From positions 1 to 38,040 of the forward strand of contig NZ_JWID01000016.1 in the NCBI RefSeq assembly GCF_001466305.1: a stretch of 38,040 bases of DNA. The letters are read 5' to 3'. Below the pieces are notes generated by a model, which saw nothing but the letters and a program-made list of their open reading frames with translations, did no database searches and was not told the DNA's origin. Each line of letters opens with the position of its first letter. Position 1 is the first letter of the stretch. The translations under genes were made by a program, and so were the position numbers. Source of the DNA: Defluviitalea phaphyphila (GTDB lineage: Bacteria > Bacillota > Clostridia > Lachnospirales > Defluviitaleaceae). Below, piece after piece: positions 13,048 to 34,632 of the stretch.

Positions 13048-14247
13048 TTATCGTCCTAACATATAATCAATGAATTGTTTTGCACTTCTTCCTGAACGTC
13101 CATTATAATACATTTCCCATTGTAACGCTTTTCTTCTTAATTCTTCCCTTGGGATATTTAAATTATAATTTTTAGCTAATTCCTCTACAATTTTTAAATA
13201 TTCTTCTTGATTTGGAGAAGTAAAAGTAATACTAATACCAAATCTATCTGCTAAAGAAATTTTTTCTTGAACAGAATCTGAAATATGTACTTCTCCTTGT
13301 GTTTCATCCCTATCTTTCCATGTCTCTTTTATAAGATGTCTTCTATTAGAAGTAGCATAAATCAATACGTTATCTGGTTTTTTTTCTACTCCACCCTCTA
13401 TTAATGCTTTCATATATTTATATTCTATTTCAAATTCTTCAAAAGATAAATCATCCATAAAAATAATAAAATACTGACTTCTATTTTTAATAAGAGATAT
13501 TACTTTATTAAAATCAACTAACTGATGCTTTGCTAATTCAATCAATCTTAATCCTTTATGAGCATATTCATTTAAGAGAGCTTTAACAGAAGATGATTTT
13601 CCTGTTCCCCTATCTCCGAATAATAAAACATTATTAGCCTTTTTCCCATTCAAAAAACTTTCAGTATTTTCAATTAAAATTTTCTTTTGTTCTTCATAAC
13701 CTATTAAATCTTTTAACCTTATAGGGTCTGGATTTTCTATCCCTTTTAATCCATTTTCCCATCTAAAGGCCTTATATTTTCCCATTATACCGCATCCATT
13801 TTTATAATAATAATCAGCTAATTTATTAATCATCTCATCAATATCTATATCATTCTCTTTTGAATTTAAAAAAGGTACAGGTTCTAATCCAATTTTATAA
13901 GCAATTTCATTCCAATCTATATTTAAATATTCTTTTATAATAGCTAAATCTCTTTTTAAAGCTATAATAATATTTTTATTAATATTAATATTTTTTTCTT
14001 TTTCGCAAAAAAGACTAAAAATATTTTCATCTTGAAGCATTAAATCATATATATATTCTTTCCATAAAGAAGAATTAATATTTTTTTCAACTCCGAATTG
14101 TAATAATTTAGATGCTATGTAAGAATATTCATCTTGAAGTTTGTAATTATTTTTCCCTTCATATTTTTTTAAATGTTTTAAAAAGTTTTGGACTTTTTTG
14201 ATTACATCATCTTCAAGTAAATTTCTATATATTATTAATCTATGCAC
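13048..14247 (-). CDS. DUF815-family AAA ATPase
   Basis: A 399-residue ATPase of the DUF815 family. An N-terminal helical region (1-180) is followed by a P-loop core: RLKDLIGYEEQKKIL, Walker A GDRGTGKSS (211-219), Walker B IIFMDDL (261-267), and YATSNRRHL as sensor 1. DRFGISITF and GRSGRSAKQF near the end act as the arginine-finger and lid region. The family is widespread in bacteria and has no settled function. The start is GTG with an AGAGGGG ribosome site. It reads away from folT, and the folT terminator lies in its leader, so it may need a promoter of its own; none is obvious in the 40-base gap. Confidence 0.88.
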   Translation of the reverse strand: MHRLIIYRNLLEDDVIKKVQNFLKHLKKYEGKNNYKLQDEYSYIASKLLQFGVEKNINSSLWKEYIYDLMLQDENIFSLFCEKEKNININKNIIIALKRDLAIIKEYLNIDWNEIAYKIGLEPVPFLNSKENDIDIDEMINKLADYYYKNGCGIMGKYKAFRWENGLKGIENPDPIRLKDLIGYEEQKKILIENTESFLNGKKANNVLLFGDRGTGKSSSVKALLNEYAHKGLRLIELAKHQLVDFNKVISLIKNRSQYFIIFMDDLSFEEFEIEYKYMKALIEGGVEKKPDNVLIYATSNRRHLIKETWKDRDETQGEVHISDSVQEKISLADRFGISITFTSPNQEEYLKIVEELAKNYNLNIPREELRRKALQWEMYYNGRSGRSAKQFIDYMLGR

Positions 14248-19608: not shown

Positions 19609-19635
19609 AAAACACCCTTTTGTGGGTGTTTTTTT
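19607..19635. terminator. Bidirectional terminator between potD and the ABC cassette
   Basis: An 11-bp stem AAAAAACACCC / GGGTGTTTTTT with a six-base loop is flanked by A and T runs. It ends the pot operon on the plus strand and the converging ABC cassette on the minus strand. Confidence 0.9.
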
Positions 19636-20374
19636 AAATTCCATTTTTTATCCACCTTTTTTCTAAAACCTTTACTAATACAGCAATACTAATAAACACA
19701 ATAATATTAAATAAATAATTTTCTCCTATATTATAAAAAAAACTTTTAAGTCCTATTTTCCCCTGTAAAAAATCAATAAATCTTTTATAATCAAGTGTAG
19801 ATGAATCATAATAAGCAAAAATTCTTAAACTTGTAGATTGCATTGAAATTATTATTCCTATGAACCAAACTATTAAATTAGTAAAAAAAGCTGCTAAAAA
19901 ATTATGAAAAACAAATCCCCAAAAAGATACTGTAATACTATAAAAACTCATTATAGCCTCAATTTTTAAAAATACAATAAGAAAAAAATCAAATTTTCCA
20001 AAAGGTGCACATATTAATAGGGTTGATACAATCCCTCCCATTATAGTTCCTATTAGTATCATAAATACCTTTGATATATAATATCTTAATGCACTATAAT
20101 TAAGAGACTTATAAAACATTATATTTTTTCCCTTATAATCAGTGTAAAATTGACTTATAATAATTGGAGAAAATATAAATATTGCAAATAAAGAATAAAC
20201 TGAATAAGTAGCAGCCACAAAGTCTCCAAAAGTAAATTGAGGCATTTCATTTACAGTAACTAATAAAATATATCCAAAAAGTACATTTAACCCACCAAGT
20301 AATATCATTATAATAAAAAATCTATTTCCTATTCCTCTTTTTAATTCAATATTTACTTTATTCATTTTACTCAC
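19634..20374 (-). CDS. ABC-2-type exporter permease, copy 1
   Basis: A 246-residue integral membrane protein with about six membrane segments (about 17-39, 57-76, 103-125, 131-153, 160-180, 221-240) and no soluble domain. It fits the ABC-2 permease layout but I cannot name a family. The segments FIFSPIIISQFYTDYKGKNIMFYKSLNYS and YYISKVFM recur almost unchanged in the second permease of the cassette (21053-21775), with which it appears similar over its full length. It overlaps the ATPase gene by eight bases. Substrate unknown; lipid, peptide or bacteriocin efflux or self-immunity are possible. Confidence 0.75.
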   Translation of the reverse strand: MSKMNKVNIELKRGIGNRFFIIMILLGGLNVLFGYILLVTVNEMPQFTFGDFVAATYSVYSLFAIFIFSPIIISQFYTDYKGKNIMFYKSLNYSALRYYISKVFMILIGTIMGGIVSTLLICAPFGKFDFFLIVFLKIEAIMSFYSITVSFWGFVFHNFLAAFFTNLIVWFIGIIISMQSTSLRIFAYYDSSTLDYKRFIDFLQGKIGLKSFFYNIGENYLFNIIVFISIAVLVKVLEKRWIKNGI

Positions 20375-20999
20375 CTTTAATGTAATAGTTGATAATCTCT
20401 TCTTTAGATAGTCCTGAAATTATATTTTGATCTTCTATTAGATAATAATTTCCTTCCATATATTCAAGGTCCGATAAATTGTGAGTAATATTAATAGATG
20501 TAATATTACCTTGTTTTAAAAATGTATTTAAAAATTTATATATATCCATGCTTGTTTTTTTATCTAATGCATTAGTAAATTCATCTAATATAATTAATTC
20601 TGGTTCTTTTGAAAGGAAATACAAAAGTTTTAACTTTTGTTTTTGACCATCGCTTAAATTTTTAAGTCTATTATTTAAAGGTATATCCCCTATATTTAAT
20701 AAATTAAACAAATAATCTACAGTTTCCTTCTTATATAATCTTCTAGTTAAATCCAAAATATCTTGTCCTAATAAATCAAGAGGTAAATTAGTATAACTTC
20801 CTATAGCTACAATAGATTTTGCATTAGTTTTTATTTCTCCTTTATAAGGGAATACTCCTAAAATAGACTTAGCAAAACAACTTTTCCCTACACCATTTTT
20901 CCCTAATAAATGATTAATAACTCCTGATTCAAATTTTATATTAACATTAGATAATAAAAGCTTATTTTTAACCTTTAAAGAATAATTATATAACTGCAT
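20367..20999 (-). CDS. ABC transporter ATPase of the two-permease cassette
   Basis: A small 210-residue ATPase. It has Walker A GKNGVGKS (33-40), a divergent signature LSDGQKQK (115-122), Walker B LIILDEFTNALD (135-146) and switch His173 in ITHN. A clear Q-loop glutamine is not visible where expected (AIGSYTNLPLDLL, 65-77), so coupling to the permeases may be atypical. At 210 residues it lacks any regulatory extension. It lies between the two permease genes, 53 bases after the upstream one and overlapping the downstream one, so it probably serves both. The cassette resembles small efflux or immunity ABC systems; no precursor peptide gene is visible nearby. Confidence 0.85.
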   Translation of the reverse strand: MQLYNYSLKVKNKLLLSNVNIKFESGVINHLLGKNGVGKSCFAKSILGVFPYKGEIKTNAKSIVAIGSYTNLPLDLLGQDILDLTRRLYKKETVDYLFNLLNIGDIPLNNRLKNLSDGQKQKLKLLYFLSKEPELIILDEFTNALDKKTSMDIYKFLNTFLKQGNITSINITHNLSDLEYMEGNYYLIEDQNIISGLSKEEIINYYIKGE

Positions 21000-21052
21000 A
21001 TAATTCCCTCTTCCCTAAATTTTTCTCAACTATCATGAAATAAGACAATCTT

Positions 21053-21775
21053 TTAAACTCCGTTACTTATCCATTTTCTCTTTAAAATATTTACCAATGC
21101 TATACAAATAATCAATATAATAATGTTAAATAAATAATTTTCTCCTATATTAATAAAAATACTTTGAAAGGCTAGCTTATTCTTTAAGAATTTAATAAAT
21201 TCTTGATAATCAAGGTTAATAGCATCATAATATGCAAAAAATCTTAAATTTTTAGATATTGCTGAAATTTGCATACCTATAATCCAAGCTGCTATACTCA
21301 CACAAAAAGCTACTATAAAATTACTAAAAATAAATCCCAAGAAAGTCATTAAAATACTATAAAAAATCATCACCGCTTCAATTTTTAAAAATACAATAAA
21401 AAAAAGATTAAATTTTCCAAAAGGTACACATATTAATAATGTTGCTATAATACTGCCCATTATAGTTCCCATTATTACCATGAATACCTTCGATATATAA
21501 TATCTTGATGTATTATAATTAAGCGCCTTATAAAACATTATATTCTTTTCCTTATAATCAGTATAAATTTGTTTTATAATAATTGGAGAAAATATAAATA
21601 TTCCTAATTGAGTATAAACCGTATAAACACTTTCTACAAAATTCTGAAATGTAACTTTAGTTACTTCATCTAGTACTACTAATAAAACATATCCTAAAAA
21701 AACAGATAAAACATTAAGAAATAACATTATTAAAAAAAATTTATTTCTTATTCCTCTCTTTAATTCAATCTTCAC
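21053..21775 (-). CDS. ABC-2-type exporter permease, copy 2
   Basis: A 240-residue membrane protein closely similar to the permease at 19634-20374, with the same six-segment layout and the same blocks (IFIFSPIIIKQIYTDYKEKNIMFYKALNY, YYISKVFMV, LIVFLKIEA-like and IGENYLFNII). The start is GTG after GGAGGG. It is the first gene of the cassette, and the pair probably forms a heterodimeric channel driven by one ATPase. DNA of the two copies is still alike (for example AATAAATAATTTTCTCCTAT near both gene ends), consistent with tandem duplication. Function unknown. Confidence 0.75.
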   Translation of the reverse strand: MKIELKRGIRNKFFLIMLFLNVLSVFLGYVLLVVLDEVTKVTFQNFVESVYTVYTQLGIFIFSPIIIKQIYTDYKEKNIMFYKALNYNTSRYYISKVFMVIMGTIMGSIIATLLICVPFGKFNLFFIVFLKIEAVMIFYSILMTFLGFIFSNFIVAFCVSIAAWIIGMQISAISKNLRFFAYYDAINLDYQEFIKFLKNKLAFQSIFINIGENYLFNIIILIICIALVNILKRKWISNGV

Positions 21776-24717: not shown

Positions 24718-27700
24718 TTATTTTTTTCTTATAAACTGAAAAGCATTAAGTAAGTTTAATTCTCCATATCCCCAAGTTTTATTGGGATAAACTATGGGTT
24801 CTCTTCTATTTGCTCCTCTAATAAGATAAGTTCTTACTTTTCTTGTTGTAAGAGTTGGGTCATTTTCTTTTATTATTCCCCATTCTAAAAGAAGAGCTGC
24901 TGCCCCTGCTGTTATAGCTGCTGCAACACTAGTTCCTGTCATTTTCCCATATCTTCCTCCAGGAAGTGGCCCTTCTACATTTACTCCGGGAGCTACTAAA
25001 TCCGGCTTTATCTCATCATCTCTTGTTGATCCTCTGCCTGAAGCAGTATATAAACTATTGTCTATATAATCATAAGCTCCAACAGTAATTGTTCCTTCTC
25101 CTGTTCCTGGAACTGTCACAGTGGTTTCTGGAACTGCTCTTAAAAAAACAGTTTCCTTATCAATCCAGCCTTCCCTAGGAAGCCAAACATGATATCTTCC
25201 ATCTACAATAAAATCTCCATGTAATGTTATAATCCAATTTCCCTCCGTTGGATTTTCAAAACGAAGCTTTGTTAGTTGATCTCCTGTTCTTGCTTCAGGA
25301 TATATATAATCTACTTTTACCTTTGTTTTTTCTAATATAAAATTGATTTCTTCTTGTTCTCCAAACCTTGCAGGAATCCTTTCTATAAATTCTCCTGTAG
25401 GAGATATTATAGAAATTGACATCCTATCGGGGGCATTATTCCATATGGATAATATAAATCCTGTTTCTCTTTCTGCAACTCTAATTTCTATATCTTCTGT
25501 TTGACCATTAGCTAAGATTCCACTGGTATGATGAGCTTTATTAGCTTCATTTCCTGCACTTGTAATCATTACAACTCCTCTTCTTCCCCCCAACTCAGCC
25601 ATATAACTTTCTACAAAAGAAGTTCCATCATGTCCTCCTTCATTACTTCCAATTCCTAAACTAATAACAATTGGCTTTCCTAGTGCTTTTGCTTTTTCAA
25701 CCATATATTTTAATGCCGTAATTACATCCGTACTTTGGTAAACAGAAGTATCTTCTTCTCCTATTAAATTATAATCTCTAAGATATTTTTTTGCTGGTTT
25801 TAACTTTACAACTAAAAGCTCTGAATCAGGAGCTGCTCCTATAAATTCTTTATTTTCTCTATCATATCCTGCTGCTACTCCTGTTAAAAAGGTTCCATGC
25901 CCTACACTATCCACATGGGGAACTATCTCTCTTGGATTTTCACTTTTTAAAGCCTTATTTATATCCTCTTCTGTAAATTCTACTCCATATCCAAATCCTT
26001 CGGGTGAATTCCCTTCTAAAGTTTGATCCCATATACTTAAAATTCTTGTAGTATTATCTTCATACATAAATGCTGGATGGGTATAATCAATTCCTGAATC
26101 TATTACTCCAACTAATACTCCATTTCCCCTTAATTCTCCATAAGGATAATTATGAAATACTAATATATCTGATGCCTCTAAACTTTCTCTTCCATAATGT
26201 CCAAAAAGTAAGGGCGTTGAATACTGTACTACTTCTTCCGTATTTTTAAAAAATTCTTTTTCTATACCCTTAGGTATTTGCAAAATAGCATTATTTTCGT
26301 TAATAATAAATACATTGGCTGCTCCATTTCTTATAGCTGCTTTTTCTATATTCCCCTCATACTCAACTATATAATCAAAATATTCTTCTGATATAATTGC
26401 TTCTTTATTTAGCATAGTTTCATTTGCTTCTTGTCTTTTTAAGCTTTCTTCCATAGAATTTTCCCCCCTTAAATCATTAAAAACATTAGCTAAGCATAAA
26501 CTCCCATATCCCCAAGAAAATTGAGGATAATTTAAAAACGGTCGATTTCTTCTTGCTCCCTTTCTAAGGTAAGATTTTAATTTTTCTCCATATAAAAAAG
26601 GGGCATTTCCTTTTACTATTCCCCATTCCATAAGTAATGCCACTGCTCCTGTCACATGGGGAGCTGCCATACTAGTTCCACTTAAGGTTTCATATCCTCC
26701 CCCTATAAAAGGTGCTGTAATATTAACTCCTGGGGCTACTAAATCAGGTTTAATAAATCTATTTCTTCTTGTATATCCTCTTCCAGAAAAAGGAGCAATC
26801 TGATTCGTTGTTCCATTATATGCTCCTATACTAATCATTCGTTCTGCTGTTGCTGGGATTGTTATTGTATGCTCTAAAGTAGGTTCTAAAAAAACCGTAT
26901 CCCTTCCTATTTCTTCAGTAATAGGCATCCATATATCATATATGCCTTCAACTATATTTTCTCCATATAAAATAAGTTCCCATATCCCATTATCTATAAA
27001 TTGTTCATTAGAATTAAGTACAATAAATATTTCCTCATCTCCGTTTAAAGGAGAAGGGCTACCAAAATAAGATACTATCTCCGTATTTCCTAAATTATTT
27101 ATTTGTATTCCTTCTTTTGATGAAATTAATCCTGTACTTTCTCCACTAGGAGAAGTTATAGAAAATTTTATGGTATCTACAAAAGACTTCCATAAAGTTA
27201 AAGCTAATTCTCTTTTCCCCTTATCAACTATAAACTGTATACTTTTTTCTTCTCCTTCTTTTAATATTCCCCCTACATGATGTCCTGTATCTCCTTCATT
27301 TCCAGTTGCAACAATAATATTAGTCTTCCATCTATTAGCCATTTCATCCATATAGGTTTCTACTATGGAATTTCCATCATGAGATCCTTCATTAGTTCCA
27401 AAGCTAATATTAATTGCAATGGGTCTTTTTAACTCTTCTCCCTTTTCCACCACATATTTTACTGCCCTCATAAGCTCTGTTGTTCTTGGAAAAGAGTTTG
27501 TTCCCTTTCTTCCTAATTTTACAATGATATATTCTGCTTCTGGAGCAACCCCTATATATTTTCCTCTACTTCCTCTTCCATTCCCCCCTGCTATTCCTGC
27601 TACATGCGTTCCATGTCCTATTAAATCTCTATGAGGAACTTTTGCTATTCGTTCAACTAATGTTGGTAGTTTCAAAGCCTCATCTATATCTTCTTTAGTA

Positions 27701-28209
27701 AATTCTACTCCTTCTGCAAATCCTTCTGGAGGATTACCCTCTAAAGTTTGGTCCCATATATAAAGTATACGGCTACTTCCATCTTCCTTAATAAAATCAG
27801 GATGAGAATAATCTATTCCCGAATCTATAATTCCTAAAAGTACACCTTCTCCCTTTAAATTATAAGGAGGTCTATTAACACTTGTAATGCAAGATTCCCT
27901 TAAACTATTATCTAAAAATAATTCTAATCTTTTAGGTCTTTCAATATATTCTATCTGAGGATAGTTAATTAATTGTGTTATCTTATTTTCTTCTAAAGTT
28001 AAAATCCCATATCCTTGGGTTAATATTTCTACTTCTGCTCCTAATTCTTTTCCTATTATATTTAAATCTCCATTATATTTTACAATAACTTCCCATTTCT
28101 TAGTTTCGTCATTAAATCCTGCCTGAAGATTTTTTATTTTTTCTTTATCTTCTTCATCCATATTAATTATTAACTGTAATGCACTATCTATCTTTTTATC
28201 ATAAGCCAT
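24718..28209 (-). CDS. cspBA: CspB-CspA-type fused germination protease with two S8 subtilisin domains
   Basis: A 1163-residue protein of two Csp-type subtilisin units in tandem, the architecture of C. difficile CspBA. Unit 1: propeptide (1-about 100), then Asp129 (IIDSG), His199 (GHGTHVAG), oxyanion Asn304 (ATGNEG) and Ser513 (GTSMAAPH), with a jelly-roll insertion at about 310-460. Unit 2: propeptide-like segment (about 600-690), then Asp704 (VIDSG), His771 (GHGTFLTG), Asn887 (SAGNEAN) and Ser1094 (GTSVAAAI). CspB cleaves pro-SleC at germination; CspA of C. difficile is described as a pseudoprotease, yet here the second unit keeps all catalytic positions by alignment, with altered surroundings (no Pro after GTS). 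No signal peptide. The ATG follows AAGGAGGAAGG. sleC lies 5 kb away; no separate cspC was seen. Confidence 0.9.
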   Translation of the reverse strand: MAYDKKIDSALQLIINMDEEDKEKIKNLQAGFNDETKKWEVIVKYNGDLNIIGKELGAEVEILTQGYGILTLEENKITQLINYPQIEYIERPKRLELFLDNSLRESCITSVNRPPYNLKGEGVLLGIIDSGIDYSHPDFIKEDGSSRILYIWDQTLEGNPPEGFAEGVEFTKEDIDEALKLPTLVERIAKVPHRDLIGHGTHVAGIAGGNGRGSRGKYIGVAPEAEYIIVKLGRKGTNSFPRTTELMRAVKYVVEKGEELKRPIAINISFGTNEGSHDGNSIVETYMDEMANRWKTNIIVATGNEGDTGHHVGGILKEGEEKSIQFIVDKGKRELALTLWKSFVDTIKFSITSPSGESTGLISSKEGIQINNLGNTEIVSYFGSPSPLNGDEEIFIVLNSNEQFIDNGIWELILYGENIVEGIYDIWMPITEEIGRDTVFLEPTLEHTITIPATAERMISIGAYNGTTNQIAPFSGRGYTRRNRFIKPDLVAPGVNITAPFIGGGYETLSGTSMAAPHVTGAVALLMEWGIVKGNAPFLYGEKLKSYLRKGARRNRPFLNYPQFSWGYGSLCLANVFNDLRGENSMEESLKRQEANETMLNKEAIISEEYFDYIVEYEGNIEKAAIRNGAANVFIINENNAILQIPKGIEKEFFKNTEEVVQYSTPLLFGHYGRESLEASDILVFHNYPYGELRGNGVLVGVIDSGIDYTHPAFMYEDNTTRILSIWDQTLEGNSPEGFGYGVEFTEEDINKALKSENPREIVPHVDSVGHGTFLTGVAAGYDRENKEFIGAAPDSELLVVKLKPAKKYLRDYNLIGEEDTSVYQSTDVITALKYMVEKAKALGKPIVISLGIGSNEGGHDGTSFVESYMAELGGRRGVVMITSAGNEANKAHHTSGILANGQTEDIEIRVAERETGFILSIWNNAPDRMSISIISPTGEFIERIPARFGEQEEINFILEKTKVKVDYIYPEARTGDQLTKLRFENPTEGNWIITLHGDFIVDGRYHVWLPREGWIDKETVFLRAVPETTVTVPGTGEGTITVGAYDYIDNSLYTASGRGSTRDDEIKPDLVAPGVNVEGPLPGGRYGKMTGTSVAAAITAGAAALLLEWGIIKENDPTLTTRKVRTYLIRGANRREPIVYPNKTWGYGELNLLNAFQFIRKK

Positions 28210-32905: not shown

Positions 32906-33589
32906 TTATAAAATAGAACCTATATCTATTAAATTTGTTGAAGTATCATATATTATTTCTAAATCTCGTTGTTGGATAAATCTTTTCATTTTTTCATAGT
33001 CAGGATGTCTAGTAATATCCCCAGAAAAATATATTTTATTTTTTATTCTTCCACCACATCCTCCTATAAATCCATATTTTTGACCAGGTAATAAGATAAA
33101 TCCTGGCTTAATTAGACATACATCTATTTTATACTTAAAAACAGTTTTAGCTATCCCTACATCAGAAGTAATAATACTATTATCATCTATAGGAAGAGCT
33201 GAACATCTAGTATATCCTTGTTTTACATGTATAAGTTTTTTATTTAATTTTTTCATATCTTCTAAAATAATAGGAGAAGTATATTTTAAATTATGAATAA
33301 AATATTTCCCTAAATTTACAGCATTAAATGCTACTGTATTAGGATAATTATATCCTAATTGATTTTCTAAAACTTCTATTTGTAATGTATTATCCTCTAA
33401 TTCATACTTAATACATTCATATTGTTCCTTTGCAATATAAATTTTTTTATCTCCTTTAAAAAGAAATATATCAGGATGATGATTTATACTTTCATAAACA
33501 ACATTAATAGGTCTTATTTCTATAATTTTTCCTACTTTATTTAATGTATTTTTTATATTATCTGAAGCATTTTGGGATATGAATATCAT
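32906..33589 (-). CDS. Probable GME-fold (DUF6873-like) protein
   Basis: A 227-residue soluble protein that I assign tentatively to the DUF6873 group, which is related to the guanidino-group-modifying enzyme (GME) fold. Conserved-looking blocks are NHHPDIFLF (His37-His38, Asp40), QGYTRCS (Arg128, Cys129), and GFIGGCGGRI with Cys178 after a Gly pair, plus FSGDITRHPD. A Cys in this last block would fit a nucleophile as in GME hydrolases, but no activity is known to me. Its start lies 32 bases inside the radical SAM gene; a GTGGAGG site 11 bases upstream of the ATG supports this start and translational coupling. Function not established. Confidence 0.65.
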   Translation of the reverse strand: MIFISQNASDNIKNTLNKVGKIIEIRPINVVYESINHHPDIFLFKGDKKIYIAKEQYECIKYELEDNTLQIEVLENQLGYNYPNTVAFNAVNLGKYFIHNLKYTSPIILEDMKKLNKKLIHVKQGYTRCSALPIDDNSIITSDVGIAKTVFKYKIDVCLIKPGFILLPGQKYGFIGGCGGRIKNKIYFSGDITRHPDYEKMKRFIQQRDLEIIYDTSTNLIDIGSIL

Positions 33590-34598
33590 CTAAAATTTTG
33601 CCTCCACTTTCAAAAATCAAACTATTTATTTTATCATTTTTTCTAAATTCTATAGGAAGTCCCTTATTTTTTATAAACTCTTTATATTTTCTTTTATGAC
33701 CTATAAGGCTTTGATATAATTTTTGATTAGCATAAATAGTGATTGGTCTTTTTCCATTTTCATTATATATTTTTAAAATATACTCATTAAGCATTTTTTC
33801 TTCTACTAGCTGTCTAAAAGCCGGATGATAAGGACCTGCTACTATTCCCTTTCCTATATTTACTTCTTCTGTTGCTTGTAATCCTACACGAAGTACTGTT
33901 ATATTAGCATCGTAAAATAAAGGAAGTATCTTGCTTGTCCATTCAATAGCTTCATCAAGGCTTAAAGGGTTATATAATCCCTTATAGTACATAGTTTCAA
34001 GTTCAGTATCTTTCATTATTACAGTGGGATAAATTCTTGTAGTATCAGGTTTCATAAGAACTATTTTTTTAGCTGTATTTATACTTTTTTCTAAGGTATC
34101 TTTAGGAAGCCCTATCATCATCTGAAGTCCTAATTCTATATTTGTTTTCTTGATGTACGCTACAGCCTTATACACATCTTCTACTTTATGATTTCTTTTA
34201 CTTTCTAATAATACCTCTTCATCTAAGGACTGCACTCCTAATTCTACTGCTTTAACAGGATATTTTAATAAAAAATCTAATATTTCTTCATTAATATAGT
34301 CTGGTCTTGTTGATATTCTAATTCCTTCTAAATCATATTTTTCTATATATTCTTTTGCTATTTCTAAATAATGTTTTTGAAGATTTATATGAATTCCCGT
34401 GAAACTTCCTCCAAAAAAAGCAATTTCTACTATTTTATCTCCCTTAAAATCTTCTAAATAATTTTCTATATAATTTCTTATTTTCTTTTCATCAAAACTT
34501 TCTCTTACTCCTGTTATTCTTTTTTGATTACAAAATACACAATCATTAGGACATCCTTGGTGAGATACAAAAATTGGTATAATCATTTTCTTTTTCAT
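33558..34598 (-). CDS. Radical SAM protein, Elp3-like
   Basis: A 346-residue radical SAM enzyme. The cluster motif is CPNDCVFC (Cys16, Cys20, Cys23), which is CX3CX2C. FFGGSFTG follows as the SAM-binding GGE-like motif, then RPDYI, ELGVQSLDEEVL and GLPKDTLE. These match the Elp3/HemN-like group annotated in Clostridia. I found no Elp3 acetyltransferase domain, so it is the SAM part only, with a C-terminal extension (GIVAGPYHPAFRQLVEEKM). The ATG at 34598 is favoured because AGGTG lies six bases upstream; an in-frame GTG at 34607 overlaps that site. It overlaps the next gene by 32 bases, implying a joint function. The substrate, perhaps a tRNA, is unknown. Confidence 0.85.
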   Translation of the reverse strand: MKKKMIIPIFVSHQGCPNDCVFCNQKRITGVRESFDEKKIRNYIENYLEDFKGDKIVEIAFFGGSFTGIHINLQKHYLEIAKEYIEKYDLEGIRISTRPDYINEEILDFLLKYPVKAVELGVQSLDEEVLLESKRNHKVEDVYKAVAYIKKTNIELGLQMMIGLPKDTLEKSINTAKKIVLMKPDTTRIYPTVIMKDTELETMYYKGLYNPLSLDEAIEWTSKILPLFYDANITVLRVGLQATEEVNIGKGIVAGPYHPAFRQLVEEKMLNEYILKIYNENGKRPITIYANQKLYQSLIGHKRKYKEFIKNKGLPIEFRKNDKINSLIFESGGKILDDIHIPKCFR

Positions 34599-34632
34599 TA
34601 AATTCACCTATTCTATATTTATGCTTTTAAAT

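Follow-up and report, generated by a model that had tools for sequence, protein, structure and literature searches.

An Elp3-like radical SAM protein paired with DUF6873, a predicted pentein, in Defluviitalea phaphyphila and other bacteria

Introduction

Elp3, the catalytic subunit of Elongator, acts in the carboxymethylation of the tRNA wobble uridine and comprises a radical SAM half followed by an acetyltransferase (KAT/GNAT) domain. According to a 2026 report (PMC13315578), acetate is made at the KAT domain and passed via a tunnel to the radical site. In the same report (PMC13315578), the M. infernus enzyme needs residues Glu207, Lys302 and Tyr304; nearly all Elp3 activity is gone in the E207A, K302R and K302A variants, and the reaction also runs on free acetate instead of acetyl-CoA. 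A second family of tRNA-modifying enzymes, MnmL/YtqA, is similar in size to the radical SAM protein described below and has the same radical SAM core. The pentein (GME) fold is that of enzymes such as DDAH, arginine deiminase (ADI), ArgZ and PAD, and penteins without enzyme activity, such as eIF6, also exist. The DDAH/ADI catalytic triad is given as His, Cys and Glu in PMC11659421.

Here we analyse a 38,040-nucleotide stretch of DNA from Defluviitalea phaphyphila (contig NZ_JWID01000016.1 of assembly GCF_001466305.1), hereafter the window, in which a radical SAM gene overlaps a gene encoding a DUF6873 protein. A sequence-only reading of the window had singled out this pair and named no described pathway for it. 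Our literature searches agree: one on DUF6873, PF21778 and the GME fold returned no paper on DUF6873, and one combining pentein with radical SAM returned none, each covering few subscription journals.

Results

Two overlapping genes on one strand

Both genes are encoded on the reverse strand. The Elp3-like radical SAM gene (33558-34607) specifies 349 residues from a GTG at 34607, or 346 from an in-frame ATG at 34598, while the DUF6873 (PF21778) gene (32906-33589), assigned by Pfam, specifies 227. The two reading frames, which differ in phase, share 32 nt (33558-33589). A GGAGG ribosome-binding site for the DUF6873 gene occupies 33601-33605, with the ATG 11 nt further on. The second gene thus begins 32 bases inside the first with a ribosome site of its own, as had been read from the sequence. 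Five relatives of the same family have overlaps of 32, 32, 32, 59 and 32 nt and carry a GAGGG-type site 5′ of the DUF6873 gene; as all five keep an overlap, it is a conserved feature of this family.

The radical SAM protein resembles Elp3 without its acetyltransferase domain

By Pfam, the radical SAM protein contains Radical_SAM (PF04055) and Radical_SAM_C (PF16199), with no GNAT family found up to an E-value of 1. The cluster motif, CX3CX2C, is formed by residues C19, C23 and C26. The best NCBIfam match is MnmL/YtqA (TIGR01212; 110.2 bits against a cut-off of 180, E = 1e-31) and the second is Elp3 (TIGR01211; 105.6 bits against a cut-off of 350). Because it scores below both cut-offs, the protein lies outside both families.

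We aligned 62 rows out of 85 usable sequences, the window's included. Compared with solved structures, the profile of these rows placed Elp3 on top (6iad, E = 7.9e-38), with the non-RNA enzymes 9ccb (MgmA) and 9p2u (NocN) at lower score. A structural model of L158, one of the natural fusions of the two proteins described below, reached a mean pLDDT of 93.5 and a pTM of 0.67. The best fold match of its radical SAM half was yeast Elp3 (8asw_C; Z 24.0, 276 residues aligned, rmsd 3.0), and the first chain other than Elp3 was NifB, at Z 18.9. Model residues 1-321 superpose on residues 94-428 of yeast Elp3. The sequence-only reading had stated that the acetyltransferase domain is missing, and both Pfam and the end of the fold match at residue 428 bear this out. 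Elp3 is therefore the closest fold relative of this half: the radical SAM barrel, the Radical_SAM_C region and the TRPD, ELGxQS and [KR]IYP motifs are common to both, whereas the KAT/GNAT domain of Elp3 has no counterpart in the protein here.

The pocket differs as well. Residue Ser99 (codon 34311-34313) aligns with Elp3 Glu207 in M. infernus numbering, and Arg191-Ile192-Tyr193 (codons 34029-34037) align with Lys302-Ile-Tyr304. Ser, Arg and Tyr occur at the Glu207, Lys302 and Tyr304 positions in 62/62 rows. The Elp3 Glu and Lys aligned to Ser99 and Arg191 are 95 residues apart, matching the published numbering. The three pocket residues are the same in rows from genomes with DUF6873 and in the 17 rows from genomes without it. 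Since Glu, Lys and Tyr have become Ser, Arg and Tyr throughout the alignment, the acetate reaction of Elp3 is not expected of this family.

In MnmL the cysteine spacing is C(X)11CX2C, against CX3CX2C here, and the pocket sites hold Ala or Ser, Lys and His, against Ser, Arg and Tyr; both comparisons use eight MnmL proteins of the phylum rather than a published definition. From these motifs and scores, the radical SAM family looks like a third type beside Elp3 and MnmL.

The genome of the window also has two MnmL (TIGR01212) genes above cut-off (G000:C6:21464-22360 and G000:C12:275840-276739). Two MnmL genes are likewise found in three other genomes (G197, G043 and G211). Across 398 genomes of the phylum, 56 have both the radical SAM gene and MnmL, 48 the radical SAM gene only, 98 MnmL only and 196 neither, a mild association (Fisher p = 2.8e-4, kinship ignored). 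We considered whether the radical SAM gene might replace MnmL and rejected this, as neither gene requires or replaces the other in these 398 genomes. Among genomes with the radical SAM gene, MnmL is present in 4/19 with DUF6873 versus 52/85 without (p = 0.002); because four of the eight DUF6873 families have MnmL, we draw no conclusion from its rarity in DUF6873 genomes.

DUF6873 has a predicted pentein fold and a candidate active site

The partner is a clear DUF6873 protein (PF21778; 244.1 bits against a gathering cut-off of 27, E = 1.5e-72). Searched by sequence against solved structures, it gave no convincing match, the best being cyclin B1 at E = 0.1. Its AlphaFold model has a mean pLDDT of 97.4 and a pTM of 0.93, and two folds tie as the best match to it: eIF6 (Z 12.2, 187 residues aligned) and DDAH-1 (Z 12.1, 201/227 aligned). 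ArgZ, PAD and arginine deiminase follow, the T. brucei pentein RESC5 is also listed, and a viral fold library gave amidinotransferase-type matches. By its model, then, DUF6873 is a pentein (GME) fold, a five-bladed alpha/beta propeller, which it shares over its whole length with these enzymes and eIF6, and to which it brings an invariant Cys, His and Asp.

Conservation was read from 31 rows collected without a motif filter, which represent nine GTDB families and include loci linked to the radical SAM gene in both orders as well as unlinked loci. The invariant residues are His38, Asp40, Tyr82, Pro83, Asn89, His99, Thr104, Gln124, Gly125, Tyr126, Cys129, Thr141, Asp143, Leu167, Phe204, Asp222, Gly224, Ser225 and five further Gly. 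His38 (codon 33476-33478), in the HPD motif, and Asp222 (codon 32924-32926), in the DIGS motif, are each invariant in 31/31 and in 93/93 rows. Cys129 (codon 33203-33205), in the QGYxxC motif, is the sole invariant Cys, in 31/31 rows of the unfiltered set; in the larger, scan-derived set its invariance is partly by construction, because the scan required QGYxxC. The motifs pointed out from the sequence are all present, with HPD at residues 38-40 as well as 195-197, RC at residues 128-129 and GGCGG around Cys178 (codon 33056-33058). The active-site role proposed for Cys178 does not survive, since this position varies among relatives (Cys in 12 of the 31 rows, Ala in 11, Thr in 7 and Ser in one). 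From conservation, Cys129 would be a likely nucleophile, with His38 and Asp222 assisting, in what we regard as a candidate active site.

By our own reading of repeat boundaries from the secondary structure of the model, repeat 1 of the propeller contains His38, repeat 3 Cys129 and repeat 5 Asp222, which is the relative spacing of the His, Cys and Glu of DDAH/ADI. The spacing suggested a circular permutation relative to DDAH/ADI, which profile comparison did not bear out. With hhalign, DUF6873 matched DDAH only in part (E = 0.014), and with a doubled alignment several registers emerged, all of them weak; the top one (E = 0.0057) pairs repeat 2 of DUF6873, not repeat 1, with the repeat that carries the His. 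Summed repeat by repeat, the five registers scored 79.4, 76.1, 73.8, 66.2 and 55.7, with the permuted register third. The best-scoring register thus differs from that in which the triads would coincide.

The sequence-only reading had proposed a substrate with an arginine- or guanidine-like group, in which case the pentein would serve as deiminase or amidinotransferase, either ahead of the radical step or following it. The pentein fold, the invariant Cys and the HPD, which resembles the HxD (HLD) of arginine deiminases and is the only GME-like motif present, speak for such chemistry. However, the EGGD and F[TV]RD motifs are absent from DUF6873, while the ADI/DDAH proteins that we collected from arginine enzymes of this order have them in 19/19 and 16/19 cases, respectively. 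DUF6873 also has no invariant Arg in the 31 rows, and its GGCGG, which resembles the C-terminal GG..C of GME enzymes, holds only the variable Cys178 and so lacks a conserved counterpart of their Cys. On this balance the arginine/guanidine proposal is not supported, and we consider guanidine chemistry quite improbable.

The two genes are inherited together, sometimes adjacent and sometimes fused

In a sample of 196 genomes of the order, DUF6873 scored above cut-off in 13; one genome at 22.2 bits (G459) fell under the cut-off and was left out. The radical SAM orthologue occurs in exactly the same 13 genomes, at 335-778 bits, with other matches at 69.8 bits or less. None of the 196 genomes has one gene alone, and in each of the 13 the two genes lie side by side on the same strand. 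For the six genomes of the window's family (f1), the radical SAM gene comes first and overlaps DUF6873; in the seven of a second family (f161), DUF6873 precedes the radical SAM gene, with the matched parts 16-38 nt apart. Two further sampled genomes of the window's own family (G442 and G472) have neither DUF6873 nor the radical SAM orthologue.

At the level of the phylum, DUF6873 was found in 19 of the 398 genomes and the radical SAM orthologue, defined as 135 bits or more (next match, 72.5), in 104, with all 19 nested within the 104. The 19 genomes belong to eight families, every one of which has the radical SAM gene (hypergeometric 3.7e-5 by family, given 42 positive families among the 141 labelled in the sample). 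The stretches of up to 1.5 kb examined around the 18 remaining DUF6873 loci of this sample, the window's locus apart, contain no radical SAM gene.

We then scanned public genome contigs for DUF6873, requiring QGYxxC. From at least 584 relatives we took the best 80, whose titles name Bacillota, Bacteroidota, Omnitrophota and others. At 23 of these best 80 loci, spread over three phyla, the radical SAM gene is on the same strand and either immediately adjacent or no more than 600 nt away. It is downstream in 17 of the 23 linked loci and upstream in 6, and one locus (L132) has one gene between the two. In the stretch around the other 57 of the best 80 loci it was not found. Whole-genome searches of 30 DUF6873 genomes picked as unlinked returned one orthologue each in 28, and seven linked genomes had one each (7/7). 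The two of these 37 genomes with no radical SAM orthologue (G589 and G602) are metagenome assemblies. Both genes are present in Thermoanaerobacterium saccharolyticum (L147/G608).

Four loci carry both proteins in one reading frame, with all three Pfam domains. In L140, titled Clostridiales, DUF6873 precedes the radical SAM part; in L158, L160 and L170, titled Bacteroidales or Lentimicrobium, the radical SAM part comes first, so that the pentein of the Bacteroidota fusions occupies the place that the KAT domain has in Elp3. All four contigs are metagenome-assembled. Since the opposite orders stand under different taxon titles, the fusion probably arose at least twice.

The sequence-only reading had suggested looking for adjacency or fusion in other genomes, and had allowed that adjacency might be confined to this lineage. 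Adjacent genes in both orders in Bacillota, Bacteroidota and Omnitrophota, and the four one-frame contigs, settle this point against confinement, and the idea that the two proteins belong together is upheld by co-inheritance, adjacency in both orders and fusion. The radical SAM and DUF6873 pair is a real unit. We did weigh whether the two genes simply share an operon and are functionally unrelated, as the 57 loci of the best 80 and the 18 loci of the phylum sample without a nearby radical SAM gene might suggest. Against this stand the perfect co-occurrence in the order, the nesting in the phylum, linkage that is kept despite reversal of gene order, and fusions in both orders; a mere operon of convenience is extremely improbable.

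The partnership is asymmetric, in that 85 of the 104 genomes with the radical SAM gene do without DUF6873. Together with pocket residues that stay the same with or without DUF6873, this means that the radical step does not depend on the pentein. In a tree of the radical SAM proteins the DUF6873 label changes twice, against a mean of 15 when labels are shuffled, a figure that is indicative only, for selected rows: 45 with DUF6873, many picked for having it, and 17 of the 85 negatives, taken from the best-scoring.

These 85 genomes, and the 17 rows of their kind with the same pocket, would also be compatible with DUF6873 as a non-catalytic pentein subunit, an eIF6-like binder that positions an RNA or protein substrate while the radical SAM protein alone does the chemistry. 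That eIF6 ties with DDAH-1 at the top of the fold matches, and that RESC5 is also among them, leans the same way. Yet the invariant His38, Asp40, Cys129, Asp143 and Asp222 have the look of an active site, because more drift would be expected of a surface used for binding. We regard a non-catalytic DUF6873 as rather unlikely.

Gene neighbourhoods, mobile elements and other genes of the window

We sampled 20 radical SAM neighbourhoods, 10 from genomes with DUF6873 and 10 from genomes without, and recognised genes by eye. A presumed RNase III gene is directly upstream in 16 of the 20 and a presumed SMC gene is near in 15. In the same set (L172-L191), a small SpoVS-like gene, also identified by eye, lies directly downstream in 10 and nearby in 12.

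These neighbourhoods bear on the nature of the substrate. The pair might act on a small molecule or peptide, for example with the pentein hydrolysing a metabolite (an amidine, an ester or a thioester) and the radical SAM protein rearranging the product. The fold that DUF6873 shares with arginine-modifying enzymes, and the presence of the lower-scoring MgmA and NocN among the profile relatives of the radical SAM protein, would suit such a target. On the other side, the best structural and profile relative is Elp3, the top two NCBIfam families, MnmL and Elp3, are tRNA enzymes, and the recurrent neighbours, as recognised by eye, are mostly housekeeping genes. A small-molecule or peptide substrate is, in our judgement, unlikely.

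DUF6873 loci have a recurrent neighbour of their own. At 35 of 79 loci (L092-L171) one adjacent gene belongs to a single family, directly downstream in 29 (for example, L166:10785-11693). By eye, we take this family to be YtxC, a putative sporulation protein. A DUF445-like gene and thrS often come next after it, again by eye.

A viral or mobile origin of the pair was considered and set aside, given the few relatives in viral, phage and plasmid collections: of the viral-contig candidates, 1/54 for DUF6873 and 0/45 for the radical SAM protein proved to be relatives, and three records of the plasmid collection carry DUF6873, one of them 2.6 Mb long. DUF6873 homologues do occur in an unannotated fecal 'phage' record (MT836776.1:2234-2899) and in an IMG/VR contig (L252:712-1155). 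Either these collections contain some bacterial DNA, or such elements carry DUF6873 on rare occasions.

Three other regions of the window, all on the reverse strand, deserve mention. At 24718-28209, a protein of 1163 residues combines the prodomain of Csp protease B with four stretches of subtilase, which read by eye as two subtilases in tandem; it resembles a germination protease of the fused CspB-CspA type. An ABC-type ATPase ORF (20367-20999) is flanked by two membrane ORFs that look alike (19634-20374 and 21053-21775), all recognised by eye, and the region 19634-21775 looks like a duplicated ABC-2 permease. A DUF815 ATPase is encoded at 13048-14247 (E = 5e-104).

Discussion

What our data describe is similar to Elp3 in its radical SAM half but has another domain as partner. 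Given their co-inheritance, and their adjacency or fusion in some genomes, the two proteins probably carry out one undescribed modification together, perhaps of tRNA. Our tentative account, to which we give somewhat less than an even chance, treats them as one unit in which a KAT-less, Elp3-like radical SAM protein works with a pentein in the role of the KAT domain to modify nucleic acid, perhaps the tRNA wobble position. We infer the substrate and product, tRNA included, from the relatives of the two proteins.

On this account, the radical SAM half would bind RNA, most likely the anticodon loop of a tRNA, form a substrate radical in its Elp3-like site, and attach a carbon side chain to a base or alter one there, for which C5 of the wobble uridine is our first guess. 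Its small substrate would be something other than acetate. The pentein would release or activate this small substrate, or finish the product, near the radical site, with Cys129 as a likely nucleophile and His38 and Asp222 helping. Where the pentein is absent, the radical SAM half may manage with a free metabolite; the usability of such a metabolite, comparable to that of free acetate by Elp3, would account for the absence of DUF6873 from most (85/104) of the genomes that have the radical SAM protein.

Whether the fusions hold their domains in a set geometry was also considered. The fusion model places its two domains without confidence (pTM 0.67), and we therefore do not propose a fixed interface or a tunnel between them. 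In the alignment behind this model, about 30 N-terminal residues were misplaced in most DUF6873 rows, and a repeat alignment was worse.

In its most specific form, our proposal is of an enzyme resembling Elongator in which the acetyltransferase half has given way to a pentein thiol enzyme that makes a donor other than acetate beside the radical site, in analogy to the acetate hand-off in Elp3. Such an enzyme would install an undescribed modification of a wobble base or of another RNA position in many Clostridia and some Bacteroidota and Omnitrophota. We offer this version as speculation and hold it to be doubtful.

If the pair does act as one modifying unit, it would point to an undescribed modification in many anaerobic bacteria. 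DUF6873 would gain a function to look for, together with a specific and testable proposal for its active site in Cys129, His38 and Asp222, and the one-chain fusions would ease biochemical tests. A natural relative of Elp3 that keeps the radical half, has an altered acetate pocket and carries a pentein instead of the acetyltransferase would show that the two-site design of Elp3 is modular.
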